From the NCBI GenBank assembly GCA_027492035.1, contig JAOZFT010000007.1, forward strand, positions 1 through 64,000: a stretch of DNA of 64,000 nt. Direction: 5' to 3'. Origin of the DNA: Thermoproteota archaeon. Lineage in GTDB: Archaea; Korarchaeota; JAOZGF01; JAOZFZ01. The notes below the pieces were generated by a model, which was given only the letters and a program-made list of their open reading frames with translations, was not told the DNA's origin and did not search any database. A program made the position numbers and the translations under genes. Within the stretch, counting starts at the first letter, position 1. Each line of letters opens with the position of its first letter. Below, one piece after another: positions 20,282 through 46,627 of the stretch.

Positions 20282-22390
20282 GTGTTTTATACCTTGTCTT
20301 TCAGAGTCGGGGTGGATGTTGGTGGAACCTTCACAGATTTAGTGGCTTTAAACAATGAAACAGGGGAGTTAATGAATATTAAAGTTCCTACAGTGACTAA
20401 GAAAATTTCTGAAGGAGTTGCTGATGCTTTAAAAGAATTCTTGAACTTAAAAGGATCTATAAAAATTTCTTTGCTGATACATGCCACCACAATCGCTACC
20501 AACGCCATAATTGGCCAGTTAGGTCTTGAACTGCCTAAGACTGTATTAATAACTACGAAAGGATTTAAGGATGTGATAGAGATTGGGAGACAGAACAGGC
20601 CTGAGCTATATAACTTGTTTGTGGAGAAACCAAAACCTTTAATACCTAGAAGATACAGATTTGAAGTTTCTGAAAGGATAGGAGCTAAAGGAGAAATTAT
20701 TGAGCCATTAAATAAGCAGGAGCTTGGAGAAATTGTTTCGAAAATAATGAAGGAGGGAATATCCACTATAGCCATTGGGCTTTTAAACTCTTACATAAAC
20801 CCGAAACATGAAAGGGAAATAGAGGAATTTTTGAAGAAGAAAATAAGAAACATTTTCATTTCTCCCTCTTATAAAGTGTCACCTGAATATAGGGAGTATG
20901 AAAGATTCAGTTCAACCGTTGTCAACGCTGTTTTAAGGCCTATAGTGTCTGTCTACATAGATGAGTTAATTGAAGAAATTAAAAGGGTTATGGGTGAGAT
21001 AGGTTTCTACATCATGCAATCGAATGGTGGGATGGCTTCAGCCTCTTCAGTCAGCATGAAACCTATTTCAATAATTGAGTCAGGTCCAGCAGCTGGAGTT
21101 GTAGCTGCAGCCTACTATGGAGAACTTTTAGGGTTAAAAAATATTCTAAGTTTTGACATGGGTGGAACCACAGCTAAAGCAGGTATAATTATTGAGAACA
21201 GGCCTATGTTGACTCATGAATATGAAGTTGGAGGGAGGGTTCATAAAGGAAGAATTGTTAAGGGAAGCGGTTACCCCGTAAGGTTCCCTTTTGTGGATTT
21301 AGCTGAATGCAGCGCGGGAGGAGGAACAATTGCATGGGTTGATGAAGGAGGCGCTTTAAGAGTTGGCCCCTTGAGTGCAGGTGCAGACCCTGGGCCTGCT
21401 TGCTACGGCAAAGGAGGTGAAAACCCAACAGTTACAGATGCTAACTTGATCATTGGAAGACTGAACCCTAATTACCTCTTAAATGGGAAAATGAAGATTT
21501 ATAGGGAGTTAGCAGAGAAAACATTGAAGAGCAAAATCTGTGAAGAAACAGGTTTAGATGTGGAGGAAGCAGCTATTGGCATAATAGAGATAGCTAATTC
21601 AGAAATGGCTAAAATTTTGAGAATTGTTTCGGTTGAAAGGGGGAATGATCCAAGGATTTTCAGTATGGTAGCTTTTGGAGGAGCAGGGCCTATGCATGCA
21701 TGTCCCTTAGCTGAAGAGTTGGAAATTTCAAGAATAATAATTCCTTTAAACCCTGGTTTATTTTCAGCTTTAGGCCTCTTAACTTCAGATCTCTCCTACA
21801 GTTTCAGTAAAGCTGTAATGGAGAAAATTAGTGAAGTTGAACCTGAAAAACTTGAGGAAATCTTCACGGAAATGGAGGAGAAAGGTAGGGAGCTGCTTGC
21901 CCGTGAAGGAATACCTGAGGAAAAAATGGTTTATTTGAGGAAAACTGATGCCAGATACCTGGGCCAATCATACGAGTTAACTGTTTCGGTTCCGAAGCCC
22001 ATTACAGAGAAAAACTTGGAGTCAGTTAAGAATTACTTCCACAAAAGACATAAAGCAGTTTATGGTTACTCTGTTGAAGAAGAGGAAGTTGAACTTGTTA
22101 ATGTAAGGCTCACAGCAATTGGTAAATTAGGGAAACCGAAACTGAAAGAAAAAAACTCTATTGTAAATAGAAGAGTGAATGTCCAACCAGAAATGAAAAG
22201 ACCTGTTTTCTTTGAAGGAACAGAGGAATATCTTGATTGTCCAATTTATTTGAGGGAGAAACTGCCACCTGGTTTTTCATTGGAAGGTCCTGCTATTTTT
22301 GAACAATACGACACTACCACAGTTATTTACCCTAAATGGGAAGCAAAAATAGATAAGTTTGGAAATGTAATCCTCAACTTGGTAGGGTGA
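20282..22390 (+). CDS. hyuA: Hydantoinase/oxoprolinase family, subunit A
   Basis: ATP-using subunit of the N-methylhydantoinase / 5-oxoprolinase / acetone-carboxylase superfamily. The actin-like phosphate loops are present: VGVDVGGTFTDLVAL at the start, HATTIATNAIIGQLG, SNGGMASASS, and SFDMGGTTAKAGII near 295, followed by SAGGGTIAWVDEGG and VAFGGAGPMHACPL. Length (702) is normal for HyuA. TTG 20294, behind GAGGTG at 20279-20284, may be the true start. It is followed after 7 bases by subunit B. Neighbouring creatininase and amino-acid/amide transporter genes favour a cyclic amide substrate, but the superfamily is broad. Confidence 0.9.
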   Translation: MFYTLSFRVGVDVGGTFTDLVALNNETGELMNIKVPTVTKKISEGVADALKEFLNLKGSIKISLLIHATTIATNAIIGQLGLELPKTVLITTKGFKDVIEIGRQNRPELYNLFVEKPKPLIPRRYRFEVSERIGAKGEIIEPLNKQELGEIVSKIMKEGISTIAIGLLNSYINPKHEREIEEFLKKKIRNIFISPSYKVSPEYREYERFSSTVVNAVLRPIVSVYIDELIEEIKRVMGEIGFYIMQSNGGMASASSVSMKPISIIESGPAAGVVAAAYYGELLGLKNILSFDMGGTTAKAGIIIENRPMLTHEYEVGGRVHKGRIVKGSGYPVRFPFVDLAECSAGGGTIAWVDEGGALRVGPLSAGADPGPACYGKGGENPTVTDANLIIGRLNPNYLLNGKMKIYRELAEKTLKSKICEETGLDVEEAAIGIIEIANSEMAKILRIVSVERGNDPRIFSMVAFGGAGPMHACPLAEELEISRIIIPLNPGLFSALGLLTSDLSYSFSKAVMEKISEVEPEKLEEIFTEMEEKGRELLAREGIPEEKMVYLRKTDARYLGQSYELTVSVPKPITEKNLESVKNYFHKRHKAVYGYSVEEEEVELVNVRLTAIGKLGKPKLKEKNSIVNRRVNVQPEMKRPVFFEGTEEYLDCPIYLREKLPPGFSLEGPAIFEQYDTTTVIYPKWEAKIDKFGNVILNLVG

Positions 22391-22397
22391 AAAGGAA

Positions 22398-24110
22398 ATG
22401 GTGGATCTAGTTACTGTAGAAGTTGTGAAGGGGGGGTTAGTTTACGCTGCCGAAGAAATGGGGATAGCTTTGAGAAACTCCTCTTATTCCCATAACATTA
22501 AGGAAAGAATGGATCACTCCTGTGCCATATTTGACAAAAATAAGAGATTGATTGCTCAAGCTGAACATATCCCCGTACATTTGGGTTCAATGGGTTTAGC
22601 TGTAAAGGAGGGTTTAAAAATTTATAAAGGGGATCTTCAAGAAGGGGATATGATCCTTTTCAATGATCCTTACATAAGTGGAACTCATTTACCAGACATA
22701 ACCCTTATAGCCCCTGTTTTCTATAGGGGAGAGATAATTGGTTACGTAGCCAATAAAGCTCATCATTCAGATGTGGGAGGAAAAGTCCCCGGAAGCCTTG
22801 CAGGCGATGCAACTGAACTTTTTCAAGAGGGAATAATAATTCCTCCAGTAAAGTTTGTGAAGAGGGGGTTTTTCGACGAAGAAATCTTAGAAATAATAAA
22901 ATTTAATGTAAGAGTCCCTGAGATAAGAGTAGGTGACTTAAGGGCTCAAGCCGCAGCTAACAATGTAGGTATAAACAGAATTCTAAGTTTAGTGGAAAGA
23001 TACGGCCTTGACAATTTTTATGAAGCAATTGAAGAAATTCTGAATTACTCCGAAAGAAGAATGAGAAGCGAAATTAAAAAAATGCCTGAAGGAGTTTATG
23101 TAGGAGAAGATTACCTTGAAAGCACAGGGGTGGAGGAAGAAAAGGTTAAAATAAGAGTTGAAATAACAATTAAAGGAAGCGAAATCACTTTTGATTACAC
23201 CGGCACGGATCCTCAAGTTAAGGGACCTTTAAATGCTCCGCTTGGAGTTACTATGTCAGGAGTGTATTACACGTTAATGGCTGTAACAGACCCAACGATC
23301 CCGATCAACGACGGCTGTTATAGACCTGTCAAGTTATATGTCCCAAAAGGGTGTTTAATGAACCCTGTTAAACCTGCACCTGTAGCTGGTGGAAATGTAG
23401 AAACTTCCCAAAGAAACGTCGACGTATTACTCAAAGCCTTTTCTAAAGTCATACCTGACAAAGTCTGTGCGGGAAGCCAAGGAACAATGAACAATGTATG
23501 CATAGGAGGAACTGTTGAAAACAACAAACTTTGGGCTTTGTATGAAACATTAGCTGGAGGAATGGGCGGAAGACCTGGGCTTGACGGGTTAGATGGGGTA
23601 CATGTCCATATGACAAACACTTTAAACACTCCCATAGAAGCTCTTGAAAAAAATTACCCCTTAAGATTTATTAGTTACAAATTGAGAAGTGACAGTGGAG
23701 GAGCAGGGAAATGGAGAGGAGGATGTGGAATTGAAAGAAGCTGGATGCTTACTTCTTCAAGAGCAACCCTTTCAATTTTAACTGAAAGAAACGTTATACC
23801 GCCGTGGGGGCTTAAAGGAGGTAAACCAGGGGCTAAAGGAGAATTTTATATAATTAAAGGTGGAAAAAAGAAAATTAAGCTCAAATCTAAATGTACAGTG
23901 ACCCTATCTGGAGGAGATGTATTTTTAGCTAAGACCCCTGGTGGAGGAGGTTATGGGAACCCTTTTGAAAGGGACCCTGAAAGAGTGCTGCAGGATGTAT
24001 TGAATGGTTTAGTTTCCGAAAAATCAGCTAGGAAAGAGTACGGTGTAGTGGTGAGGAAAGGGGAGTTGAACTTGGAAGAAACTATGAAATTGAGGGAGGG
24101 AAAGGTTTAA
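22398..24110 (+). CDS. hyuB: Hydantoinase/oxoprolinase family, subunit B
   Basis: Partner of HyuA; together they open cyclic amides with ATP. Typical segments: LRNSSYSHNIKERMDHSCAI, the metal-site regions AEHIPVHLGSMG, FNDPYISGTHLPDITLIAPV and ANKAHHSDVGGKVPGS, then DYTGTDPQVKGPLNAPLG, and a Gly-rich C-terminus (SGGDVFLAKTPGGGGYGNPF). Length (570) is normal. The ATG follows GGTGAAAAGG. The 3' end meets the livF stop (24107) tail to tail with a 4-base overlap. Confidence 0.9.
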   Translation: MVDLVTVEVVKGGLVYAAEEMGIALRNSSYSHNIKERMDHSCAIFDKNKRLIAQAEHIPVHLGSMGLAVKEGLKIYKGDLQEGDMILFNDPYISGTHLPDITLIAPVFYRGEIIGYVANKAHHSDVGGKVPGSLAGDATELFQEGIIIPPVKFVKRGFFDEEILEIIKFNVRVPEIRVGDLRAQAAANNVGINRILSLVERYGLDNFYEAIEEILNYSERRMRSEIKKMPEGVYVGEDYLESTGVEEEKVKIRVEITIKGSEITFDYTGTDPQVKGPLNAPLGVTMSGVYYTLMAVTDPTIPINDGCYRPVKLYVPKGCLMNPVKPAPVAGGNVETSQRNVDVLLKAFSKVIPDKVCAGSQGTMNNVCIGGTVENNKLWALYETLAGGMGGRPGLDGLDGVHVHMTNTLNTPIEALEKNYPLRFISYKLRSDSGGAGKWRGGCGIERSWMLTSSRATLSILTERNVIPPWGLKGGKPGAKGEFYIIKGGKKKIKLKSKCTVTLSGGDVFLAKTPGGGGYGNPFERDPERVLQDVLNGLVSEKSARKEYGVVVRKGELNLEETMKLREGKV

Positions 24111-24808
24111 ATGCCCAAATATGCTTTTTTAACCGTGTCGTTTTCTGCAAGTTGTTTACTTTCACCTTCCAGAGTTATTTTCCCATTTTCTAAAACATAA
24201 GCTCTGTCAGCTATTTTTAACGTTTTTTTAACGTTTTGCTCCACTAACAAAATAGTTATACCTTCCGAGTTCAATTTTTCCACAAGCTTAAAAACCTCGT
24301 TTGAAATTTTCGGAGCTAAACCTAGGGATGGTTCATCCAGCATTAACAGTTTAGGTTTAGACATTAGGCCCCGAGCTATAGCCAACATTTGTTGTTCACC
24401 GCCGCTGAGGGTTCTAGCTAACTGGTTCTTTCTTTCTTTCAGGATTGGGAAGTAGTTGTAGACCCATTTCATCCTATCCTCTAATTCTTCTTTATCAACA
24501 GTGTAACCCCCAACTAAAAGGTTCTCATAAACTGTTAAATTCCCAAAAAGTTCTCTTCTTTCAGGAATTAGGGAAAGGCCCCTTTTAACGATTTCGTGAG
24601 GAAGTAAACCGTTTAGTTTCTGTTTTAAGAAAACTATTTCGCCACTTGACGGTTCAATTAAGCCTGTTATTGTCTTTAATAGCGTTGATTTACCGGCTCC
24701 ATTAGCTCCGATAATTGCAACAAGTTCTCCTTCATTCACTTCAAGTGAAACATTCCATAAAACTTGTACGTCTTCATATTTCACGTCAAGATTTTTAACT
24801 TTTAACAA
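24107..24808 (-). CDS. livF: Branched-chain amino acid/amide ABC transporter ATPase LivF-type
   Basis: One of the two ATPases that power the importer. Walker A GANGAGKST, Q-loop region, signature LSGGEQQMLAIARGLM, Walker B LLMLDEPSLGL and the switch His region VEQNVKKTL are all present. The chosen TTG 24808 lies just after the livG stop and has GAGGAG ahead of it; the longer frame from ATG 24847 would overlap livG by 38 bases. It is the last gene of the livKHMGF set. Confidence 0.9.
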   Translation of the reverse strand: MLKVKNLDVKYEDVQVLWNVSLEVNEGELVAIIGANGAGKSTLLKTITGLIEPSSGEIVFLKQKLNGLLPHEIVKRGLSLIPERRELFGNLTVYENLLVGGYTVDKEELEDRMKWVYNYFPILKERKNQLARTLSGGEQQMLAIARGLMSKPKLLMLDEPSLGLAPKISNEVFKLVEKLNSEGITILLVEQNVKKTLKIADRAYVLENGKITLEGESKQLAENDTVKKAYLGI

Positions 24809-24809
24809 T

Positions 24810-25526
24810 TCACTCCTCACCAAAGTAAGCCTCAATAACTTTTTCATTTTCTCTTATTTGTTGCGGAGGGCCTTCAGCTATTTTTCTCCCTTCATGAAGT
24901 ACAATTATTCTTCCAGCTATGGGCATAATGGCTTGCATAACATGTTCAACAATGACTAAAGTTAATCCCTTCTTGTTTATTTCTTTAAGAATTTCAACTA
25001 ATTCCGCAACTTCAGCAGGAGTTAAGCCTGCAGCTATTTCGTCCAGTAACAAAATTTCAGGTTTAGTAGCTATAGCCCTAGCCAACTCCAAAGATCTTTG
25101 ATCAGCAGGGGTTAAGTTTCCAGCTAAAACATTTTCTTTTCCTTCCAAACCAACAGTCTTAATAACTTCCTTAGCGAACTTCACAGCCTCATTTTTTCTA
25201 CTTGACTTAAGTAAGGCCCCTATCAAAACGTTATCCAACACTGAAAGAGATTTAAAAGCCCTTATTAACTGGAAAGTTTTTGTTAAACCCATCTGGCATA
25301 TTTTATGAGGCTTTAAACCAGTTATTTCTTTTCCTTTATAGAAAACCTTGCCTTCAACAGGTTTATAAAAGCCTGTTACACAATTAAGTAAGGTAGTTTT
25401 TCCGGCACCGTTAGGACCAATTAAACCAATTACTTCATTGTTTTTAACCGTGAATGAAACATTTTTTAAAGCTTGTAAACCTCCAAAACGCATAGAGACA
25501 TTTTCAATTCTGAGAAGGGTTTCCAT
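24810..25526 (-). CDS. livG: Branched-chain amino acid/amide ABC transporter ATPase LivG-type
   Basis: Second ATPase of the importer: Walker A GPNGAGKTT, the LivG-specific insert CQMGLTKTFQLIRAFKSLSV, signature LTPADQRSLELARAIA (with DQR in place of the usual GQQ), Walker B LLLDEIAAGL and switch His VEHVM. The C-terminal tail KIAEGPPQQIRENEKVIEAY is typical of LivG. The ATG overlaps the livM stop (TAATG). The divergent signature motif keeps LxPxxQR and is common in LivG. Confidence 0.9.
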   Translation of the reverse strand: METLLRIENVSMRFGGLQALKNVSFTVKNNEVIGLIGPNGAGKTTLLNCVTGFYKPVEGKVFYKGKEITGLKPHKICQMGLTKTFQLIRAFKSLSVLDNVLIGALLKSSRKNEAVKFAKEVIKTVGLEGKENVLAGNLTPADQRSLELARAIATKPEILLLDEIAAGLTPAEVAELVEILKEINKKGLTLVIVEHVMQAIMPIAGRIIVLHEGRKIAEGPPQQIRENEKVIEAYFGEE

Positions 25527-26509
25527 TAATGATCTCCCCTAATTCTTGGTAATTTGTGATAAATTTTTCCAATCAACTTTATTAATCCGTGAGGGTAAAG
25601 TACACAAATTAATATTATTAGAGAGCCAAGGACTATTAGATCTAAACCACTCCTAGCTCCTAAAAAGGCTCTTGTGTATTCCATGAGCGGAACCATTATA
25701 AAAGCCCCTATTAAGGAGCCATAGATTGTGCCCGCACCACCTAAAATTGCAACGATCACTATTTGGACGGTTAAAATATCTGAAAGAACAGTTTCAGGAG
25801 CTATGTAACCGACAAAGAAGGCGTAAAGAGTACCCGCCAAAGAAGTGAAAGCAGCACTTATTACAAAAGAAATTAATTTATACCTGAGGGTGTTAATGCC
25901 TAAACTTTCAGATGCAAGTTCATCCTCTCTGATAGCTACAAAGTAGTAACCAAGTTTAGACTTAACAATTTTTTCAGCCAAAAGAATTTCCGCAAAAAGG
26001 AAAATAAGCATTAGGTAACAATATGGTAATTTACTTTCGAACTGTAAATAAAACCATGGAACATGTGACTCCAAAGGAATAATTAAGCCTGTTGCTCCAC
26101 CTACAAGATCCCAATTAGTGAAAGAGTACCTCATTGCTACCAAAAAAGCTATTGAAGCTAAAAAAAAGAAGTGACCCCTTAAACCAAACCTGAAACAAAG
26201 GTAACCAATCAAGCCAGCGAAAAGAGCAGAAACCAAAGCTCCAATAAACATTGAAATATAGGGTGTAACCCTCCACCAAATGAAGAGAAGAGCTGAAGTG
26301 TAAGCTCCTAAACCGACAAATGCAGCGTGAACAAAGGAGCCTTGTCCTGTGTAGCCTCCTAGTAAGTCCCATGCAACACCTAAATAAGCAAAGTAGAGGA
26401 CGAGAAAAAGCGTTCTTCTAAAATAAGGAGAGGGATAGAGGGGAAGAAGAGAGAGTATAATTAAAATAATTAGCTTGTTTATTGCTGATTTCTCCAGTCT
26501 AACATTCAT
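25526..26509 (-). CDS. livM: Branched-chain amino acid/amide ABC transporter permease LivM-type
   Basis: Membrane permease of about nine helices. Family marks: DLLGGYTGQGSFVHAAFVGL near residue 48, the cytoplasmic EAA-like loop IREDELASESLGINTLRYKL near 200, and VAILGGAGTIYGSLIGAFI. Length (327) is usual. It overlaps livH by ATGA and livG by TAATG, showing translational coupling of the operon. Confidence 0.9.
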   Translation of the reverse strand: MNVRLEKSAINKLIILIILSLLPLYPSPYFRRTLFLVLYFAYLGVAWDLLGGYTGQGSFVHAAFVGLGAYTSALLFIWWRVTPYISMFIGALVSALFAGLIGYLCFRFGLRGHFFFLASIAFLVAMRYSFTNWDLVGGATGLIIPLESHVPWFYLQFESKLPYCYLMLIFLFAEILLAEKIVKSKLGYYFVAIREDELASESLGINTLRYKLISFVISAAFTSLAGTLYAFFVGYIAPETVLSDILTVQIVIVAILGGAGTIYGSLIGAFIMVPLMEYTRAFLGARSGLDLIVLGSLIILICVLYPHGLIKLIGKIYHKLPRIRGDH

Positions 26510-27381
26510 TTCCTCCCCCCTGTACCAAATATTCCTGTGGGTTTAAATAAAAGGATTAAGATGAAAACAACCATTGCAACCACTTCCTTCCATTGCGGCC
26601 CCACGAAAAGAGCTGAAAGAGACTCCAGTTCACCTATGATTAATCCACCTGCAAGGCTTCCTACAAAACTTCCCATTCCACCCAAAACCACTATTATGAA
26701 AGCTAAAAGGATAAATATGGAACCTACGGTTGGGTAGATGTAATAATAAAGTGAAATAAACACTCCAGCTACTCCCGCTAAGCCTGTTCCAATTCCAAAA
26801 GTTACCATTCTCATTTTTTTAACGTTTATGCCTACAAGTTCAGCTGCAATAGGGTTTTCGTCAACAGCCCTTATACCTGTACCCATTTTTGTCCTTGTCA
26901 AGAAAAAATGCAAAATAATTATGGTTACTACACTGCCTATGAAACCTATCAAGCGAGGGGTGCTAATATGTAAACTCCCCAACGAAATTAAGGGGAAGTT
27001 CAACCTTATTGCCCTGTAATCAGCACTCCAAAAAAAGTACGCAAGGTTTTGTAAAAGTAAAAGCAAACCGAAAGTAAGAACAGTCTGGATAAAAATATGA
27101 GCTTTAATAACTTTTTCTATAGTGACTCTTTCAAAGGCTGCACCTGCAAAAAAAAGAAGGGGGAAAACGATGGCTAGACTTAAAAGGGGGTGTAAACCTG
27201 TTAGGGTAAACAGCCAAAAAGCAATGTACATCCCAAGCATTATGAACTCTCCATGTGCAAAGTTTATTATTTCTAATACACCATAGATCATGTTTAATCC
27301 TAAAGTGAAGAGTGCATATATTCCACCAATTAATATTCCTTCAATGGCGACTTCTAAGAGATGCTGCAGCAAAGCAGACAA
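26506..27381 (-). CDS. livH: Branched-chain amino acid/amide ABC transporter permease LivH-type
   Basis: Second permease, with about eight helices. Seen: GGIYALFTLGLNMIYGVLEI then NFAHGEFIMLG, the EAA-like RAVDENPIAAELVGINVKK, and VVLGGMGSFVGSLAGGLIIG. It starts at TTG 27381, close behind a G-rich stretch; TTG 27372 is an alternative with better spacing. It lies 18 bases after the substrate-binding protein gene. Confidence 0.9.
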   Translation of the reverse strand: MSALLQHLLEVAIEGILIGGIYALFTLGLNMIYGVLEIINFAHGEFIMLGMYIAFWLFTLTGLHPLLSLAIVFPLLFFAGAAFERVTIEKVIKAHIFIQTVLTFGLLLLLQNLAYFFWSADYRAIRLNFPLISLGSLHISTPRLIGFIGSVVTIIILHFFLTRTKMGTGIRAVDENPIAAELVGINVKKMRMVTFGIGTGLAGVAGVFISLYYYIYPTVGSIFILLAFIIVVLGGMGSFVGSLAGGLIIGELESLSALFVGPQWKEVVAMVVFILILLFKPTGIFGTGGRK

Positions 27382-27399
27382 ACCCCCTATTCTAAACTT

Positions 27400-28716
27400 T
27401 TAACCTCCTCTTTCAGACCATGTAGGCATTGGGAAAACAACATCCCTAGTTGCAACATTCCAAGGCCAGATAGTGTAGGCTGTAGCGTTAAATGTTTGGG
27501 TCATTATTCCCTTCACAAGGATATTTTGTCCGTTTTCAGGGTTGAATTTGATTCCATCCCATGCTGTAGGAAGTTTCTCAGCCGGCCAGTTGGTTGCAAG
27601 TATAGCTTGCCTCAAGGCTTGGTGATCTGTCGAACCAGCTCTTTCAAGGACATCAGCTACCAAAAGTGCACCTACATAAGCTCTTATTGATGTACCGTCA
27701 AAGTGTTTACCGAACTTAGCATAGTAAGCATCATCAGCTTCTTTAGCAACAGGGTTTATTTTCTTCATGTCCGGTGCATAATTTTCTCTGTTAATTATGT
27801 AATCGCCATCTTTACCGACTGCTTTGAAGTAATCAGGGTGAGTGTAACCTACGTCTGTGGCTAAGATTATTTTCGGGTTTACGTCGTATTCTTTCATTGT
27901 TTTAGTGAAAAGTATGGCGTCAGTAACGTACGAAGTCAACATTAAAACATCAGGGTTTGCAGATTTTATTTTTGAAACTTCGGATGTAACGTCAGGGGTG
28001 TCGTGGCTGTAGGGGAGATCTAAAACAACTTGGTAACCGTGTTCAGCCGCATACTTCTTTTCTAGTTCACCCATGCTTGCCCCCCACAAAGTGTTCTCGT
28101 AAACTACAGCCACCGTTTTTAATGGTACATTAGGGTACTTCTTTGTTAAATCACTTAAGAACTCAAAGAAGTTCCTGGCGAAAAGGTCATCATCGGGGGT
28201 TATTCTGAAAAACCATTTAAATCCTTGCTGGATTAATTTAGGTGATGTTGATTCAGGATTAATCATAGGTATTTCATATTTTTCAGCTACTCTAGCTACA
28301 GTTAAAGTGTTGGAACTTGCATAGGCTCCTGCAAGCATGCATACATGCTCCTCGGTGATAAGTCTCTCAGCTTCAGCAGCAGCTGTTTCAGGGTCCCCTT
28401 TACTATCGGCAAAAACAAAAACAAGTTTTGCTCCTCCCAAGGATTTTATTCCACCTTCAGAGTTCACTTTATCTTGGACAAGAAGAAAAGCGTCTCTTGC
28501 ATCGGTTCCAGGTTTAGCTAGAGAACCTGTGAGCGGGTATACAACTCCAACTTTAACTTCTTTAACGGTAGGTGTTGGGGAAGGGGTTGCAGTTACAGTA
28601 GGAGAAGGTGTAGGAGAAGGAGTTGGGGAAGGAGGCTGCCCCACACATCCTGCAATCAATAGAAGTAATGTAGCCGCCAATATTAAGGGGATTTTTCTAT
28701 TTCCCCAACTTCTCAT
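27400..28716 (-). CDS. livK: Branched-chain amino acid/amide ABC transporter substrate-binding lipoprotein
   Basis: Extracytoplasmic ligand-binding protein of the Leu/Ile/Val and amide family. The signal peptide has basic residues, then PLILAATLLLLIAGC, whose Cys is the predicted lipid anchor. A Pro/Thr/Ser-rich linker of about 35 residues (repeats of PSPTP) follows and would hold the domain off the membrane. The periplasmic-binding fold type I begins at VKVGVVYPLTGSLAKPGTDA and includes AGAYASSNTLTVARVAEKY. ATG 28716 is chosen over GTG 28728 because GGGTG is well spaced from it. Ligand unknown: amino acids, urea and short amides are all possible in this family. Confidence 0.9.
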   Translation of the reverse strand: MRSWGNRKIPLILAATLLLLIAGCVGQPPSPTPSPTPSPTVTATPSPTPTVKEVKVGVVYPLTGSLAKPGTDARDAFLLVQDKVNSEGGIKSLGGAKLVFVFADSKGDPETAAAEAERLITEEHVCMLAGAYASSNTLTVARVAEKYEIPMINPESTSPKLIQQGFKWFFRITPDDDLFARNFFEFLSDLTKKYPNVPLKTVAVVYENTLWGASMGELEKKYAAEHGYQVVLDLPYSHDTPDVTSEVSKIKSANPDVLMLTSYVTDAILFTKTMKEYDVNPKIILATDVGYTHPDYFKAVGKDGDYIINRENYAPDMKKINPVAKEADDAYYAKFGKHFDGTSIRAYVGALLVADVLERAGSTDHQALRQAILATNWPAEKLPTAWDGIKFNPENGQNILVKGIMTQTFNATAYTIWPWNVATRDVVFPMPTWSERGG

Positions 28717-28782
28717 TTTTTTTGACACCCTTCTAAATTTTGTAATATTTAGTTTAGCTTGAGACGTTTTTATGCTTAAAAA

Positions 28783-38742: not shown

Positions 38743-39636
38743 ATGCCTGGAAAATTTAAAGGTGTTTTTGTACCTCATGTTACCCCTTTCACAGTGAAGG
38801 GTGACATAGATAAAGAAAAATTGAAGAAGCTTATTCATTTTATAATGGACTCAGGTTGTAATGGACTTATTTCGTGCGGAAGTACAGGTGAAGCACCATT
38901 TTTAACATTTGAAGAAAGAAAAGAAATTATTGAGTTAGTTATGGATGAAGTAAGTGGAAAAATGGCTGTTATAGCTGGAACAGGCTCACCTAGCACTTCT
39001 GAAACGCTTAAAATAACAGAAGAGGCTCATGACCTAGGAGTCGACGCAGCCCTTATAATTACACCCTACTTTTTTAAACTAAGCGACAAAGAAGTTTTGG
39101 AACATTACAGAGTTATTATAGAGAAAATTGATTTACCTATTATAATTTATAACGTGCCAAAATTTACAGGTTACAATTTAAACCCCACGATTGTAACTGA
39201 ATTAGCTAAAGAGTACAGCCAAGTTGTGGGTGTAAAGGATTCAAGTGGTTCAATAAATCAAATCTCTAGATTAGTGGAATCCGTCGGAAACAAAATTTCT
39301 GTGTTAGCAGGCACAGGTGAAACCTTTTTCCCAACACTTACATTAGGGGGGCATGGTGGAGTCTTAGCCATAGCTAACGTAGCTCCTCACCTATGTACCC
39401 AAATATATAAATGTTTCAAAGCAGGAGAACTACAAAAAGCCCAACATCTCAATTTTCGATTATTAAAACTGAATGAGTTTTTAGTGAAAAAACACAATCA
39501 AGTAAGTTGCATAAAAACTGCCTTAAACATGATGGTTGAAGCAGGGGGATTACCTAGAAAACCTATTTTGCCTCCATCAATTGAAACAGAAAACAACATT
39601 TTCAAGCTTTTGAAGGAGACAGGTCTTGTAAAGTAA
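38743..39636 (+). CDS. DapA/NAL-family aldolase, substrate uncertain
   Basis: A TIM-barrel class I aldolase of the dihydrodipicolinate synthase / N-acetylneuraminate lyase family. The Schiff-base lysine is in VVGVKDSSG, the catalytic tyrosine in IIIYNVP, and the substrate-carboxylate loop reads GSTGEAP. The Arg that in true DapA follows the Tyr motif (NVPxRTG) is replaced: NVPKFTG. That argues against authentic dihydrodipicolinate synthase and for another 2-oxoacid aldolase such as a KDG or 4-hydroxy-2-oxo acid aldolase. Length 297 is normal. A GAAGGGGG site precedes the ATG. No other lysine-pathway gene is in the window. Confidence 0.85.
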   Translation: MPGKFKGVFVPHVTPFTVKGDIDKEKLKKLIHFIMDSGCNGLISCGSTGEAPFLTFEERKEIIELVMDEVSGKMAVIAGTGSPSTSETLKITEEAHDLGVDAALIITPYFFKLSDKEVLEHYRVIIEKIDLPIIIYNVPKFTGYNLNPTIVTELAKEYSQVVGVKDSSGSINQISRLVESVGNKISVLAGTGETFFPTLTLGGHGGVLAIANVAPHLCTQIYKCFKAGELQKAQHLNFRLLKLNEFLVKKHNQVSCIKTALNMMVEAGGLPRKPILPPSIETENNIFKLLKETGLVK

Positions 39637-39865: not shown

Positions 39866-40129
39866 ATGTTTACCAGAAAACCTTTGTTACCCCCTACTGC
39901 AAAAAAGCTTAGAGAAGTTGAGATAGTTATTCTTGAAGATAGATGTAAAGGATGTGGCTTTTGCATAGAGTTCTGCCCTAGGGAAGTGCTAAGTAAATCA
40001 GAAAAATTGAACTCAAGAGGTGTTCACCCTCCAAAAGTAAGTAACAAAGACTTATGCGTAGGTTGTGGTTTATGTGAAAAGATATGTCCTGACTTCGCTA
40101 TTTTTCTTGAGGAGTGTGATCAAACATGA
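39866..40129 (+). CDS. korD: 2-oxoacid:ferredoxin oxidoreductase, ferredoxin-like delta subunit
   Basis: An 87-residue two-cluster ferredoxin subunit, CKGCGFCIEFCP and CVGCGLCEKICP, carrying electrons from the thiamine site to ferredoxin. It is first in the order D-A-B-C, which is the order of 2-oxoglutarate:ferredoxin oxidoreductase in methanogens. The stop overlaps the korA ATG (ATGA). It starts a tightly packed seven-gene operon. Confidence 0.9.
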   Translation: MFTRKPLLPPTAKKLREVEIVILEDRCKGCGFCIEFCPREVLSKSEKLNSRGVHPPKVSNKDLCVGCGLCEKICPDFAIFLEECDQT

Positions 40130-41268
40130 GAAGAGACGTGTTGACAGGTGAGTACTTTACAGAAGGCGATATTGCTTGTGCAGAGGGGGCAATAGCTGCT
40201 GGTTGCCGTTTCTTTGCTGGGTACCCCATTACCCCCTCAAGTGAATTAGCTGAACACATGGCAGCAAGGCTTCCTGAAGTTGATGGAGTCTTTATTCAAA
40301 TGGAGGATGAACTCGGATCTATGGCAGCAGTTATAGGTGCAAGCTGGGCTGGAGTGAAATCTATGACAGCGACTTCAGGTCCAGGGTTCAGTTTAATGCA
40401 GGAAAACATAGGACTTGCAATTATGACAGAAACTCCCTGCGTAATAGTTAATATTATGAGAGGGGGACCAAGCACAGGGCAACCTACAAAATCAGGTCAA
40501 CAAGACGTTATGCAAGCTAAATGGGGGTCTCATGGAGATTATGAAATAATTGCAGTTTGTCCTTCAACAGTGCAGGAAATGTTCGACTTAACTATTGAAG
40601 CATTCAATTTGTCAGAAATTTACAGGGTTCCAGTTATAGTTTTAGGTGATGAAATTCTTGGGCATTTAACAGAGAAGCTGGTTATACCGCAACCGGAAGA
40701 AATAGAAATTGTAGAAAGAAGAAAACCGCCAATTAAAGAGGGATATTCTTGGTTTAAGTTCAATCCAGCTTCTATCCCAGCAATGGCCAGTTTCGGTGAA
40801 GGATTTAAAGTTTACGCAACAGGTTTAACTCATGACGAAACAGGGCATCCTGATATGTCTCCAGAAACTCAAACAAAGCTTGTCAAGTATTTATGTGATA
40901 AAGTGCGTAAGAATGCAGACAGAATAGTTAAGTACAAGGAAATAATGCTTGATGATGCAGAAATAGCCATAATAACTTACGGTTCACCAGTGAGATCGGC
41001 TTTAAGTGCAGTGAAAAGAGCAAGGAAAGAAGGGATAAAGGTAGGCCTACTTAAGTTGTCAATTGTTTGGCCATTTCCAGAAAAAATTGTTAAGAAGGTT
41101 TCAGAAGAAGTGGATACGGTAGTGGTGTTGGAAATGAATTATGGGCAAATTTTGCGAGAAGTTCAGAGAGTAGCTGGTTTAGAACGTGTAAAATTTCTCC
41201 CGAAATTCGGTGAAGATTTACATAAACCTGGTGAAGTACTGGAATTAGTTAGAAGGTGTAAAAAATGA
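40126..41268 (+). CDS. korA: 2-oxoacid:ferredoxin oxidoreductase, alpha subunit
   Basis: Pyrimidine-binding domain of the thiamine diphosphate enzyme that turns a 2-oxoacid (probably 2-oxoglutarate) plus CoA into acyl-CoA, CO2 and reduced ferredoxin, or runs in reverse for carbon fixation. Seen: GAIAAGCRFFAGYPITPSSE, IQMEDELGSMAAVIGASWAG, TATSGPGFSLMQENIGLA, VNIMRGGPSTGQPTKSGQQD and GSHGDYE. Length (380) and wording agree best with KorA. The next start overlaps the stop (ATGA). Confidence 0.9.
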   Translation: MRRDVLTGEYFTEGDIACAEGAIAAGCRFFAGYPITPSSELAEHMAARLPEVDGVFIQMEDELGSMAAVIGASWAGVKSMTATSGPGFSLMQENIGLAIMTETPCVIVNIMRGGPSTGQPTKSGQQDVMQAKWGSHGDYEIIAVCPSTVQEMFDLTIEAFNLSEIYRVPVIVLGDEILGHLTEKLVIPQPEEIEIVERRKPPIKEGYSWFKFNPASIPAMASFGEGFKVYATGLTHDETGHPDMSPETQTKLVKYLCDKVRKNADRIVKYKEIMLDDAEIAIITYGSPVRSALSAVKRARKEGIKVGLLKLSIVWPFPEKIVKKVSEEVDTVVVLEMNYGQILREVQRVAGLERVKFLPKFGEDLHKPGEVLELVRRCKK

Positions 41269-42143
41269 AAAGTACAATAAAATATGCAGCTGCACATCCA
41301 TTAGACCCTTACCTCAGGAAGGGAATGATTCCTCACATTTGGTGCACAGGCTGTGGAAACGGGGTAATTCTTAACTGTTTCATTCGGGCAGTAAGAGACT
41401 TAAATATAGACGTAAATAAAACGGTAGTGGTTTCAGGGATAGGGTGCATAGGAAGAATAACAGGGTACATAAACATGGATTCCTTCCACACCACACATGG
41501 CAGACCTATTGCTTTTGCGACAGGGGTGAAACTGGCAAAACCAGAACTTAATGTAGTAGTAATCAGTGGCGACGGTGACCTTTTTGCAATAGGTGGAAAC
41601 CATTTCATTCATGCTGCAAGAAGGAACATGGACCTTTTAGTTATTTGCGCCAATAACTTCAATTATGGTATGACAGGGGGCCAATATGCCCCCACAACTC
41701 CTTTAAACGCTAAAACAATGACCTCTCCTTACGGCAACATTGAACACCCTTTCAACCTGGTTCACTTGGCTTGGGCTTCTGGTGCAGTTTACGTTGCCAG
41801 ATGGACTACTGTGCATGTGACAAGGCTTCTCAAATCAATTAAGAAAGCATTGACAAAGAAGGGGTTTAGGTTTATAGAGGTAATAAGTCCATGTCCTGAA
41901 GTTTATGGTAGATACAACAAAATGGGAGACGCCTTGGAAATAATCAAATGGTTAAAGGAAAACTCAGTAATTCAACATTTCACAGACCCAAGTAAGGCAG
42001 AGATAGAATTGGGGGGAAAAATCACTGTCGGAGAATTCGTTGAGAAAGAGAAACCAGTATATAATGACTTAATTCTACATTTGAAAAGGAGAATAAAAGA
42101 GAAACTGGAGAAGGAGGGAAAGAGGACATTAGTTAAAATTTAA
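41265..42143 (+). CDS. korB: 2-oxoacid:ferredoxin oxidoreductase, beta subunit
   Basis: Holds the thiamine diphosphate and nearby Fe-S ligands: IPHIWCTGCGNGVILNCFIR, SGIGCIGRITGYINMDSFHT, THGRPIAFATGVKLAKPEL, the Mg/TPP motif VISGDGDLFAIGGNHFIHAA, and NNFNYGMTGGQYAPTTP. The 292 residues are standard. TPP and Cys motifs are intact, so the enzyme should be active. The Kor assignment over a pyruvate-type enzyme rests on subunit order and is not absolute. Confidence 0.9.
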   Translation: MKSTIKYAAAHPLDPYLRKGMIPHIWCTGCGNGVILNCFIRAVRDLNIDVNKTVVVSGIGCIGRITGYINMDSFHTTHGRPIAFATGVKLAKPELNVVVISGDGDLFAIGGNHFIHAARRNMDLLVICANNFNYGMTGGQYAPTTPLNAKTMTSPYGNIEHPFNLVHLAWASGAVYVARWTTVHVTRLLKSIKKALTKKGFRFIEVISPCPEVYGRYNKMGDALEIIKWLKENSVIQHFTDPSKAEIELGGKITVGEFVEKEKPVYNDLILHLKRRIKEKLEKEGKRTLVKI

Positions 42144-42166
42144 GCGTTTTGGAAAGGTGTTGAAAA

Positions 42167-42730
42167 ATGAAACTTGAAATTGTTATAGCAGGGTTCGGAG
42201 GCCAAGGCATCATTAAAGCTGGCTTAATAGTGGGTTCTGCAGCTTCGCTTTTCACAGGCTTAAATGCATGCTTTGTCAGATCCTATGGACCTGAAGCAAG
42301 GGGAGGAGCTTGTAAAGCTGAAGTTATAATTTCAGATGAGGAAATTGATTACCCGAAAATCGAGAAGCCAGATGTTTTAGTTGCAATGTCTCAAGAGGGT
42401 TACGAAAAATATGTTGAGAAAGTTAAAGAGAAGGGACTTATTATATTAGATCCTGACTTAGTTGAGCCATTCAAACCTGGAAGAATCTATAAAGTACCAG
42501 CTACAAGAATAGCTGAAAAACTAGGTAAAAAGATAGTTGCTAACGTTGTAATGATAGGGGCTTTAACACCATTAATCAAGGTTTTGAAACCGGAAGATGT
42601 GGAAAACTCACTTGTTAGAAATGTTCCTCCAGGCACCGAGAAACTAAACTTGAAAGCGTTCCGGGAAGGCTATGAATACGGAAAAATTTCATTAAAGCAG
42701 AAAGAACCGGTAAGAAGAATTAATTGTTAA
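42167..42730 (+). CDS. korC: 2-oxoacid:ferredoxin oxidoreductase, gamma subunit
   Basis: A 187-residue gamma subunit with GFGGQGIIKAGLIVGSAASL and SYGPEARGGACKAEVIISDE, both strongly conserved. It completes the four-subunit set. It lies 23 bases after korB behind GGTG and 30 bases before hdrA, so electron output from Kor and the Hdr-type complex are made together. Confidence 0.9.
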   Translation: MKLEIVIAGFGGQGIIKAGLIVGSAASLFTGLNACFVRSYGPEARGGACKAEVIISDEEIDYPKIEKPDVLVAMSQEGYEKYVEKVKEKGLIILDPDLVEPFKPGRIYKVPATRIAEKLGKKIVANVVMIGALTPLIKVLKPEDVENSLVRNVPPGTEKLNLKAFREGYEYGKISLKQKEPVRRINC

Positions 42731-42760
42731 GGGTGAGGAAGAAGAGGAAAAGGGGGTTAT

Positions 42761-45205
42761 ATGGAGACAAGAATAGGGGTGTATATCTGTCATTGCGGCA
42801 CAAACATAGGAGGAGTTTTGGATTGTGAAGCATTGGCAAAATTTGCTTCTAAACTTCCAAATGTAGTTGTGGCAAAAGATTATAAATACATGTGCGCTGA
42901 TCCAGGTCAAGAAATGATTAAAAAAGATATTAAAGAATTTAAATTGAACAGAGTGGTTGTGGCTTCTTGTTCCCCTCGAATGCATGAACCCACTTTTAGA
43001 AAATGTGTAGAGGAGGCAGGTTTAAACTCCTTCTTTTTTGAAATGGCTAACATTAGGGAACAAGTTAGTTGGTGCCATTACGATTCACCAAAACAGGCTT
43101 TTGATAAAGCTAAGGACTTAATAAAGGCAGCTGTAGCTAAGGCTAGGTTGCTTACACCCTTAACACCTCTTAAAGTTCCAGTTGAAAAGAGAGTTTTAGT
43201 GATAGGTGGAGGAGTAGCTGGCATACATGCTGCTCTTGACTTGGCAGATATGGGGTTTAAGGTTTACCTTGTAGAAAAAGAACCAACTATAGGGGGTTGG
43301 ATGGCTTTACTAGACAAAACATTCCCCACTCTTGATTGTTCAATCTGCATCCTTGGACCTAAAATGGTTGATGTAGCTAAACATTCTAACATTGAACTTT
43401 TCACCTACTCTGAAGTGTTAGATATAGAAGGGTTTGTTGGGAATTTCAAGGTTAGAATTCTTAAAAAACCAAGGTATGTGGAAGTTGATAAATGTAACGC
43501 ATGCAGTGAATGCGTGAACGTTTGCCCTGTAGAGGTTCCTAACAAGTTTGACGGTAACTTAGGTTGGAGAAAAGCAATATACATTCCCTTCCCTCAAGCT
43601 GTTCCACCAGCTTACTTGATCGATGAAGATGCCTGTTTAGGAATAACCCCTTTAGCTTGTGGCAAGTGCCAAGAAGTTTGCAGAGAAAAGGGAGGTGACG
43701 CAATCAATTTTGACATGCACCCTGAAGTGTTAGAAGTTAGTGTAGGCGCAATAATTGTTGCTACCGGCTATGAACTTTATGACCCCTCAAAAATTAAAGA
43801 ATACGGTTACGGTGTTTACCAAAACGTAATTACCTGTTTTGAACTTGAAAGGTTAATAAATTCATCAGGACCCACTTACGGAAAGGTTATAAGGCCTTCG
43901 GATGGAAAGGAACCGAAAAAAGTTGCTTTTATTCAATGCGTAGGTTCAAGGGATGAAAAAGCAAATGTTTACTGCTCAGGTTTCTGTTGCATGTACACAA
44001 TCAAAAACGCTATCCTTTTGAAGGAGAAACATCCTGAAACTGAAATATATATTTTTTATATAGACATAAGAGCCAATTTTAAGGGATATGAAGAATTTTA
44101 TAGAAGAGCCAGGGAGGAAGGAATAATTTTCATTAGAGGAAAACCTGCAGAAATTTCCGAGAATCCTTTAACCAAAAATTTAACAATTTATTGTGAAGAT
44201 TTAGGTTTAGGAAAAGTTATTTCACTTGAAGTTGATTTAGTTATTCTTTCAACAGCTGCGATACCAAGACATGGAAAAGACGAATTAGCTAGGAAGCTGA
44301 ACATTGTCACAGGATCTGACGGTTTTTACCTTGAGGCCCACCCTAAACTGAAACCTATTGATGCAGCTACTGACGGTGTTTTTCTTTGCGGGTCAGCTCA
44401 AGGACCAAAAGACATACCTTACAGTGTGTCACAAGCCAGTGCTGCAGCTGCAAGAGCTGCAAGGATTCTTTCAAAGGATTACTGGGAAATTGAACCAATA
44501 GTAGCGTACATAGATGAATCTAAATGTAGAAACCCAAAAACAAAGTGTGGAATATGTGCAACAAAATGTCCCTATGGAGCAATAACTGTAGAGCCAAACA
44601 AACCTGCCAGAGTTGAACCTGCAAAGTGTCATGGATGTGGCACCTGCGCAGCAGACTGCCCCGGTGACGCAATCACCCAGATGCATTTCACAGATGCCCA
44701 AATACTTTCTCAAATACACGCTATTTTGGAAGAGAACCCTGAAGAAAAAATACTTTGCTTCCTTTGCAATTGGTGCAGCTACGCCGGAGCAGATTTAGCA
44801 GGCACTTCAAGACTAACTTATCCACCCAACGCAAGGGCTGTAAGGGTGATGTGTTCAGGTAGAGTTGACAAAGATTTTGTGTTAGAAGCTTTCCGTTTAG
44901 GGGCTGGGATGGTTCTTGTCTCAGGCTGCAGGTTAACAGAGTTCGGAAGCGATTGCCACTACATTACAGGTAACGTAAACGCCAAGAAGAGAATGAAGAT
45001 AGTGGAGAAAATACTTGAAAAAGCAGGAATATCAAAGGAAAGATTCAGACTTGAATGGATATCTGCATCTGAAGGAGATAAATACGCTAAAATAATTAAA
45101 GAAATGGCTGAAAAGATGAAAAAACTTGGAAAAGAGAAAATAATTGAGGAAAATAGGAAAGCAGAGCCTTTCCTTGAAAAAATACTGAAGAAAAAAATTA
45201 CGTGA
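42761..45205 (+). CDS. hdrA: HdrA-type flavin/Fe-S subunit fused to MvhD-like domain
   Basis: The electron-bifurcating core of a heterodisulfide-reductase-like complex, 814 residues. In order: the N-terminal HdrA region (VYICHCGTNIGG, SCSPRMHEPTF); the FAD-binding Rossmann part (GGGVAGIHAALDLADMG) with the LDCSICILGP Cys; an inserted ferredoxin (CNACSECVNVCPVEV); a C-terminal two-cluster ferredoxin (CGICATKCPYGAI, CHGCGTCAADCPGDA); and from about residue 661 an MvhD/FlpD [2Fe-2S] domain (CFLCNWCSYAGAD, VRVMCSGRVD, SGCRLTEFGSDCHY). MvhD usually is separate and takes electrons from hydrogenase, formate dehydrogenase or F420 modules. GTGA couples it to hdrC. Confidence 0.92.
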   Translation: METRIGVYICHCGTNIGGVLDCEALAKFASKLPNVVVAKDYKYMCADPGQEMIKKDIKEFKLNRVVVASCSPRMHEPTFRKCVEEAGLNSFFFEMANIREQVSWCHYDSPKQAFDKAKDLIKAAVAKARLLTPLTPLKVPVEKRVLVIGGGVAGIHAALDLADMGFKVYLVEKEPTIGGWMALLDKTFPTLDCSICILGPKMVDVAKHSNIELFTYSEVLDIEGFVGNFKVRILKKPRYVEVDKCNACSECVNVCPVEVPNKFDGNLGWRKAIYIPFPQAVPPAYLIDEDACLGITPLACGKCQEVCREKGGDAINFDMHPEVLEVSVGAIIVATGYELYDPSKIKEYGYGVYQNVITCFELERLINSSGPTYGKVIRPSDGKEPKKVAFIQCVGSRDEKANVYCSGFCCMYTIKNAILLKEKHPETEIYIFYIDIRANFKGYEEFYRRAREEGIIFIRGKPAEISENPLTKNLTIYCEDLGLGKVISLEVDLVILSTAAIPRHGKDELARKLNIVTGSDGFYLEAHPKLKPIDAATDGVFLCGSAQGPKDIPYSVSQASAAAARAARILSKDYWEIEPIVAYIDESKCRNPKTKCGICATKCPYGAITVEPNKPARVEPAKCHGCGTCAADCPGDAITQMHFTDAQILSQIHAILEENPEEKILCFLCNWCSYAGADLAGTSRLTYPPNARAVRVMCSGRVDKDFVLEAFRLGAGMVLVSGCRLTEFGSDCHYITGNVNAKKRMKIVEKILEKAGISKERFRLEWISASEGDKYAKIIKEMAEKMKKLGKEKIIEENRKAEPFLEKILKKKIT

Positions 45206-45732
45206 AAGAGGAAGGGTGGAGAAAGGAATTGGAACAGGGGGAGAAATTAAGAAAATTAAAGGAAATAAAAAGAAAAGCCTTGATTTGTTTCCAATGTGGA
45301 GTATGTGTTGGAAGCTGTCCAGTCGCTTTCGTAAATGAAAAATATAATCCAAGAAGAATCTTAAGAAACTTCCTTTTCAACCAATCCCCGCCACAGCTAA
45401 ATCTAAGCAATTTACCTTGGCTATGCCTCCATTGTTATGCATGTCTCGAAAGATGCCCCCAAAATATAGGCCTATCAGAAGTTATGTTTAAGATTCAACA
45501 CCTTCAGTTTTTAAATGGAGAAATACCTTCCAGTTTCTTAAATGCAGTTAAACAAATAATTAAAACAGGCAGGGTTTCACCTGTGACGCCAATAACGGAA
45601 AGAAGAAGGGAGCAGCTTAATCTTCCAAAAATTGAAACCGAAACAGGAGTTGAGGAACTTAAGAAAATAATTAAAGAAACAGGTTTAAAAAAACTCCTGT
45701 TCAGTCAAGAAGAGGAGAAAAGAAGTGGCTGA
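45202..45732 (+). CDS. hdrC: HdrC-type iron-sulfur subunit
   Basis: A 176-residue soluble Fe-S subunit linking HdrA to HdrB, with two [4Fe-4S] motifs: CFQCGVCVGSCP near residue 30 and CLHCYACLERCP near 75. A charged N-terminal helix of about 25 residues precedes them. The GTG start overlaps the hdrA stop, and its 3' end overlaps hdrB by 8 bases, so translation is coupled through all three genes. The order A-C-B is found in several archaeal and bacterial Hdr-like sets. Confidence 0.9.
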   Translation: MKEEGWRKELEQGEKLRKLKEIKRKALICFQCGVCVGSCPVAFVNEKYNPRRILRNFLFNQSPPQLNLSNLPWLCLHCYACLERCPQNIGLSEVMFKIQHLQFLNGEIPSSFLNAVKQIIKTGRVSPVTPITERRREQLNLPKIETETGVEELKKIIKETGLKKLLFSQEEEKRSG

Positions 45733-46627
45733 AAGAGAAACCGGGCACAAGTATGCTTTCTTTCCAGGATGCTTAGTAACTACAAGGCTTCCTTACATAG
45801 AAGCTGCTGTAAGGAAGTCAATGAGGAGACTTGGTGCAGAACTGGTGGACATGCCTGAAACAACATGCTGCCCTGAACCAACCCTTACAAAAGCTTTAAA
45901 TCAAAAGACATGGTTAGCAATTGCAGCAAGAAATTTATCCATAGCTGAAGAAATAGGACTAGACATATTGACTCCATGTAACGGATGCTATGGAACATTT
46001 AAGACTGTAAATTATATCATTAAAACCAATGAAAAGGAAAGGGTTAAGATAAATGACACACTTAAAAAAGTGAATAGGGAATACAAAGGGAAAATACAAG
46101 TGAAACATGTGGTTGAAGCCCTTTACAAAGACATAGGTAAAGAAAGAATAAAGAAAGAAATCCAGAAACCCTTAAAAAACATTAAAATAGCAGTTCATTA
46201 CGGTTGTCACCTTTTAAGGCCAAGTGAAATAATTCAACTTGACGACCCTGAACAACCAACTTTCTTAGATGAATTAGTGGAAGTGTTAGGGGCTAAAAGT
46301 GTGGATTATGAAAGAAAAATGATGTGCTGTGGGGGAGAAGATTTAAAAATCCACCCCCAAACAGCCTACTCCATTTTAAAAGAAAAATTATCAAGTATAA
46401 AAGAAGCAGATCCAGATTGTATAGTGGTTACATGTCCCCTCTGCATGATTCAATTGGATGAAAACCAAGCTTTACTTCAAAGAAGGCACCGTCAAAACTT
46501 CAACATACCTGTGTTTTATTATTCTGAACTCTTATGTTTAGCCTTAAATATTAATTTAGGAGACCAACACTTTAAACTCCACCGAATAAAAGCAGATGAA
46601 GTAGTTAAGAAAATAGTTAAAAGTTGA
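45725..46627 (+). CDS. hdrB: HdrB-type disulfide reductase subunit
   Basis: Catalytic subunit with two CCG domains, each binding a non-cubane [4Fe-4S] cluster in known HdrB: FFPGCLVTTR with TTCCPEPTLT and TPCNGCYGT, then VHYGCHLLRPS with MMCCGGEDLK and TCPLCMIQLD. All cysteines for both clusters are present, so it should carry out disulfide (CoM-S-S-CoB-like) reduction or a related reaction; the natural substrate is unknown where no methanogenesis genes are seen. It ends the kor-hdr operon. Confidence 0.9.
   Translation: MAERETGHKYAFFPGCLVTTRLPYIEAAVRKSMRRLGAELVDMPETTCCPEPTLTKALNQKTWLAIAARNLSIAEEIGLDILTPCNGCYGTFKTVNYIIKTNEKERVKINDTLKKVNREYKGKIQVKHVVEALYKDIGKERIKKEIQKPLKNIKIAVHYGCHLLRPSEIIQLDDPEQPTFLDELVEVLGAKSVDYERKMMCCGGEDLKIHPQTAYSILKEKLSSIKEADPDCIVVTCPLCMIQLDENQALLQRRHRQNFNIPVFYYSELLCLALNINLGDQHFKLHRIKADEVVKKIVKS

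Follow-up and report, generated by a model that had tools for sequence, protein, structure and literature searches.

Why would an archaeon encode a 2-oxoacid:ferredoxin oxidoreductase (Kor) and a heterodisulfide reductase (Hdr)-type complex in one operon? The question is raised by a stretch of 64,000 nucleotides from a korarchaeote (hereafter the window; positions 1 to 64,000 of contig JAOZFT010000007.1, assembly GCA_027492035.1), which is part of contig C20 of a 1.87-Mb metagenome-assembled genome. We think, with middling confidence, that seven genes in the window form one dedicated electron-transfer system that joins the 2-oxoacid oxidoreductase to the flavin chemistry of HdrA. A first-pass annotation had described seven overlapping or closely spaced kor and hdr genes, with an MvhD domain at the C terminus of HdrA and no hydrogenase genes, and had suggested that ferredoxin reduced by Kor feeds the Hdr complex. 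Domain scans of the seven proteins with Pfam and NCBIfam models bore out these identities. The genes lie at 39866-46627 on the + strand in the order korD-korA-korB-korC-hdrA~mvhD-hdrC-hdrB:

39866..40129, + strand: korD, delta subunit, 87 amino acids, with two CxxCxxCxxxC [4Fe-4S] motifs
40126..41268, + strand: korA, alpha subunit, 380 amino acids, with POR_N and PFOR_II domains
41265..42143, + strand: korB, beta subunit, 292 amino acids, with a TPP_enzyme_C domain and the thiamine pyrophosphate (TPP) motif GDGD...NN at residue 102
42167..42730, + strand: korC, gamma subunit, 187 amino acids, with a POR domain
42761..45205, + strand: hdrA~mvhD, HdrA2-type, 814 amino acids, with the HdrA core at residues 2-656 and MvhD/FlpD at residues 664-790
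43847..43849, + strand: codon for Glu363 of HdrA, the equivalent of E356 in M. thermolithotrophicus HdrA (alignment to 5odc_A)
44003..44005, + strand: codon for Lys415 of HdrA, the equivalent of K409 in M. thermolithotrophicus HdrA (alignment to 5odc_A)
44750..45130, + strand: MvhD (FlpD) domain fused to HdrA, residues 664-790 (Pfam, 2.7e-48)
45202..45732, + strand: hdrC, 176 amino acids, with two [4Fe-4S] motifs
45725..46627, + strand: hdrB, 300 amino acids, with two complete CCG motifs (ligands of noncubane clusters)

The junctions measure -4 nt (korD/korA), -4 (korA/korB), +23 (korB/korC), +30 (korC/hdrA), -4 (hdrA/hdrC), and -8 (hdrC/hdrB). Kor has all four subunits (alpha, beta, gamma, and delta) of a four-subunit 2-oxoacid:ferredoxin oxidoreductase, along with the TPP motif and the delta clusters. 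The solved structure nearest to KorA is the alpha subunit of a 2-keto acid:ferredoxin oxidoreductase (1yd7); KorB, which has six cysteines including a CxxC near its N terminus, is nearest to 8ys5_C. KorA scored 567.8 bits against a generic model for 2-oxoacid alpha subunits (NF006412; cutoff, 411). However, the curated models specific to 2-oxoglutarate:ferredoxin oxidoreductase (OGOR) were not reached by KorB (273 of the 364 bits needed; NF007207), KorA (381 of 579; NF007206), or KorD (71 of 125; NF042987), so 2-oxoglutarate is not established as the substrate. The cluster ligands of HdrB and HdrC are intact, and both proteins are close to solved HdrB and HdrC structures. The operon contains no mvhG, mvhA, or any other hydrogenase gene, as had been noted, and no flx NADH module. 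A gene for a DHDPS-family aldolase/lyase (38743-39636) lies 230 nt upstream of korD; it was not seen upstream of kor in a relative from the same family (G001, locus L034).

HdrA exceeds the cutoff of the NCBIfam model for HdrA2 (NF040770; 1157.3 bits, cutoff 1100), and the MvhD domain reported at its C terminus is present. The core aligns end to end with Methanothermococcus HdrA (5odc), and the tail aligns with separate MvhD chains. An AlphaFold model of the monomer (pLDDT 83.8, pTM 0.75) matches both 5odc_A (59% identity in the Foldseek alignment) and MvhD chains (1.3 Å between the MvhD domain and 8rvu_F). In M. thermolithotrophicus HdrA, E356 and K409 have been used as marks of bifurcation, and K409 contacts N5 of the FAD (PMC12054007). 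The equivalent residues of the window's protein, E363 and K415, are invariant in 17 MvhD-fused homologs, as are the five cysteines of the fused MvhD domain.

The methanogen complexes HdrABC-MvhAGD (5odc) and HdrABC-Fdh-Fmd (7bkb) have the HdrABC core and the MvhD domain in common with the window, but the window's operon encodes no MvhGA or Fdh subunits, and Kor holds the place of Fmd, the low-potential partner in 7bkb. Similarly, HdrA2B2C2 from Methanosarcina acetivorans, whose HdrA is of type Ia, has a C-terminal MvhD, HdrC, and HdrB, as in the window, where in contrast they share an operon with kor in a genome that lacks mcrA. Methanosarcina HdrA2 couples ferredoxin, F420H2, and a disulfide (PMC5296606). 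Two papers on HdrA2 (PMC5296606 and PMC12054007) do not mention kor beside it.

Is the linkage of kor to hdrA conserved? We compared the positions of KorA and HdrA across genomes and then fetched the loci. The two share an operon in 36 archaeal genomes: 5 from the host's phylum group (the window, L034, L055, L140, and L141, with L055 assigned to the group by sequence rather than by any stated classification), 17 Asgard archaea, and 14 Thermoproteota. This count omits L168, in which kor and hdrA are back to back. Two further Asgard genomes (G162 and G163) have the linkage by coordinates only. The kor/hdrA junctions across the linked genomes are nearly always near zero, at a few nucleotides. In a simple simulation, a same-strand pair of KorA and HdrA genes within 3 kb arose by chance in about 1.4% of genomes of such size and copy number. 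With the pairing repeated in 36 genomes and such tight junctions, we rejected chance adjacency, and the operon cannot be a feature of the host genome only.

What accompanies Kor and HdrA varies. In the first arrangement (form A), korDABC is followed by hdrA-mvhD-mvhG-mvhA (L141, L163, L170, L171, L173, L174, and L179); in Hermodarchaeota, hdrCB lies in front of these genes (L156, L157, L167, and L169). L204 is a broken copy of this kind, and L205 has korDABC-hdrA-mvhD. The second (form B) is the window's: korDABC-hdrA~mvhD-hdrC-hdrB, found in the complete window order in L055, cut by the contig end in L034, and present in the Asgard locus L162, on a different branch of HdrA from the window's and with KorB and KorC fused (L162:4935-6449). 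L140 (G017), whose sequence ends inside hdrA, was considered for this form and rejected, as the HdrA tree groups it with the Hermodarchaeota form. In the third (form C; L160 and L201-L203, with domains checked in L160 and L201), HdrC is fused to a GltD-like pyridine-nucleotide oxidoreductase (L201:2712-4136 and L160:5470-6900), followed by hdrA~mvhD and then korDABC; L161 is similar, with its upstream gene cut off. The fourth (form D; L164-L166 and L178) has korDABC-mvhD and three Flx-like genes (domain checked in L164 only), then hdrA. In form F (L206-L214), korDABC is followed by a double-core (type II) HdrA of about 1130-1150 amino acids with MvhD; L207 also has an HdrC~HdrB fusion and a gene for the alpha subunit of electron transfer flavoprotein (EtfA) after HdrA.

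Thus, the constant pair is Kor and HdrA, and the third module is MvhGA, Flx-like NAD(H) proteins, an HdrC~GltD-like NAD(P)H protein, a double-core HdrA with HdrC~HdrB, or HdrCB alone. Such exchange of the mid-potential or disulfide module is expected if the HdrA flavin machine has Kor as its low-potential partner, in the place of Fwd/Fmd in methanogen complexes.

We also asked how the pairing is distributed on phylogenetic trees, in which L168 was counted as kor-linked. In a tree of HdrA with 122 rows, built by a quick method and with some long branches, the kor-linked label needs approximately 6 changes (at least 5 of them forced by starred branches), versus a mean of 31 with shuffled labels. 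The kor-linked HdrAs fall in about five groups, which implies that the pairing arose or moved repeatedly. KorA trees clustered likewise, with 6 changes needed versus 17 with shuffled labels (careful tree) or 7 versus 24 (larger, quick tree); the window's KorA is nearest to that of G001, and then to the KorAs of forms B and C. The window's HdrA group lies inside the MvhD-fused HdrA2 proteins, next to Fwd-linked and AOR-linked relatives. In these relatives, from Bathyarchaeota (Fwd; L054 and L059) and from Chloroflexota and Actinomycetes (AOR), a low-potential oxidoreductase is again in or beside the operon, although the enzyme acting on the carbon substrate differs from the window's Kor. In nine loci from Chloroflexota and Actinomycetes (L067, L070, L072, L074-L077, L099, and L124), hdrA~mvhD is split near residue 198 by one codon, identified as TGA in the two genomes for which it was read; an AOR gene is nearby. 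This codon probably encodes selenocysteine.

The host genome has three hdrA-mvhD loci. The two outside the window are unfused, and each is beside an FrhB-like gene (PF04432 was found in the copy on C9; the copy on C13 gave just a weak Fe-S match). A single clear [NiFe] hydrogenase is encoded, on C38; its small subunit has NiFe_hyd_SSU_C, so the enzyme is probably not of the Mvh type. This hydrogenase is not beside any hdr gene. We therefore rejected the idea, raised with the first-pass annotation, that an Hdr-linked hydrogenase elsewhere in the genome is the real partner. Because two of the three KorA-type genes of the genome are located away from hdr, the window's kor set looks specialized. 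mcrA is absent, so we also rejected methanogenesis. The genome does contain a member of the F420-ligase family and a ComA-family gene of the coenzyme M synthesis type (C22:13785-14510), which was not found in 11 other genomes that we checked. Elsewhere in the window are a gene for a membrane-bound H+-pyrophosphatase (10321-12351) and genes for hydantoinase/oxoprolinase A and B beside an apparent ABC transporter of the branched-chain amino acid type (20282-28728; the binding protein was confirmed by Pfam). The latter genes may hint at amino acid catabolism.

If the seven gene products do form one system, then KorABC and the two-cluster KorD would oxidize a 2-oxoacid, probably from amino acid breakdown, to acyl-CoA and CO2. 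The low-potential electrons would pass to the ferredoxin-type domains of HdrA, via KorD or free ferredoxin. There, the FAD would join them with dithiol electrons from HdrB and HdrC, and electron pairs would leave through the fused MvhD to a mid-potential acceptor, with F420 or NAD(P) as candidates. Run in reverse, the system could drive reductive carboxylation. We infer the direct electron transfer, the confurcating mode, its direction, the acceptor, and the disulfide; with no third partner encoded in the window's operon, F420 or NAD(P) is a deduced acceptor. Oxidation is weakly favored by the genes of amino acid uptake type in the window and by an acyl-CoA synthetase of the NDP-forming type, which lies close to kor in L140 and L141.

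Several observations weigh against a single Kor-Hdr system. First, the window's operon encodes no F420- or NAD-binding partner, so the acceptor for confurcation is missing from it. Second, most relatives of the fused HdrA2, including the Bathyarchaeota loci, are not linked to kor: among the 80 loci with the closest HdrAs, kor is present only in L055 and in L056, which is on the same contig as L034. Third, Kor can pair with an electron module without HdrA: in three Thermoproteota genomes, korABC is followed by mvhD-mvhG-mvhA, without hdrA (L216:1204-6476, L217, and L218), which is possibly a Kor-hydrogenase unit that lacks the flavin subunit. Fourth, because mcrA is absent, the disulfide is at best putative. 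Finally, adjacent genes need not imply that Kor and Hdr are in physical contact.

The lack of a mid-potential module in the window's operon would also fit a simpler scheme, in which Kor reduces ferredoxin and HdrABC spends the electrons on a disulfide, without bifurcation or confurcation. This was proposed for HdrA2B2C2 in acetate-grown Methanosarcina, which does have ferredoxin:CoM-S-S-CoB activity (PMC5296606), and HdrB and HdrC are intact. However, the bifurcation residues of HdrA are retained, modules for H2 or NAD(P)H occupy the same place in sister loci, and a large drop in potential would be wasted. We consider this scheme unlikely.

We judge it similarly improbable that the system runs in the reductive direction, with HdrA splitting the electrons of a mid-potential donor, by bifurcation, between a disulfide and Kor; Kor would then carboxylate acyl-CoA to a 2-oxoacid and so fix CO2. 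Kor enzymes are reversible, and the H2 modules of many archaeal loci could provide electrons. There is also a published model: in the gammaproteobacteria Endoriftia, the Escarpia symbiont, and Thioflavicoccus, korABCD lies among flxABCD/hdrABC genes, and in Endoriftia the operon is coexpressed and direct electron transfer has been proposed, as part of the reductive tricarboxylic acid (rTCA) cycle of tubeworm symbionts (PMC6315080 and PMC11636981). These clusters share with the window a four-subunit oxidoreductase, there an OGOR whose genes are interspersed with hdrABC. However, those clusters are bacterial and include Flx (NADH) proteins and rTCA genes, whereas the window lacks flx, has MvhD fused to HdrA, and shows no rTCA neighbors that we could see. 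Moreover, autotrophy and an rTCA gene set are hypothetical for the host genome, and the acyl-CoA synthetase and uptake genes point, weakly, toward catabolism. Least probable is mere coregulation of kor and hdr as two users of ferredoxin: both do use soluble ferredoxin as a rule, kor alone is present in many genomes, and contact between the two is putative, but the pairing is repeated in about five clades of HdrA with junctions of a few nucleotides, and variants in gene order still keep Kor and HdrA together.

How much of this is new? In Asgard papers, Hdr, Mvh, and Kor each come up on their own (PMC8163825 and PMC11291895). We found no description of an archaeal Kor-Hdr operon in the open-access literature, which does not prove novelty, as most subscription papers were outside our search. 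The first-pass annotation had noted the pairing with Kor as one not known for Methanosarcina HdrA2. With 36 genomes and the gammaproteobacterial clusters, the pairing is neither peculiar to the host genome nor wholly new. What stands of that annotation is a complete kor-hdr operon, the MvhD fusion, and no hydrogenase in the operon; the linkage, whose lack of conservation would have refuted it, proved to be conserved. Direct entry of Kor electrons into HdrA and a confurcating reaction are proposals. The HdrA2 type and the bacterial kor-hdr-flx clusters were already known; what we describe here is the archaeal Kor-HdrA operons with an exchangeable partner.

More tentatively than for the window itself, we propose that archaea have a bifurcating or confurcating 2-oxoacid oxidoreductase complex in which KorDABC and HdrA are the fixed core, while the third partner has changed many times among H2, NAD(P)H, electron transfer flavoprotein, F420, and a bare disulfide. 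Such a complex would serve anaerobic archaea, Asgard lineages among them, as a general device for energy coupling. The recurrent pairing with an exchangeable partner suggests a general, still putative, way of coupling the metabolism of amino acids (as 2-oxoacids) to energy saving. The oxidation of 2-oxoacids in anaerobic archaea is usually drawn with free reduced ferredoxin as its endpoint. If Kor is wired to HdrA, then flavin chemistry inside an enzyme complex would instead recover or steer part of the energy. This wiring is directly testable, given that Kor and HdrA stay together as hydrogenase, NAD(P)H, and disulfide modules trade places around them. If Kor is so wired, then the yields estimated for Asgard archaea, Korarchaeota, and Thermoproteota that ferment peptides would change, with a bearing on Asgard-based models of syntrophy.

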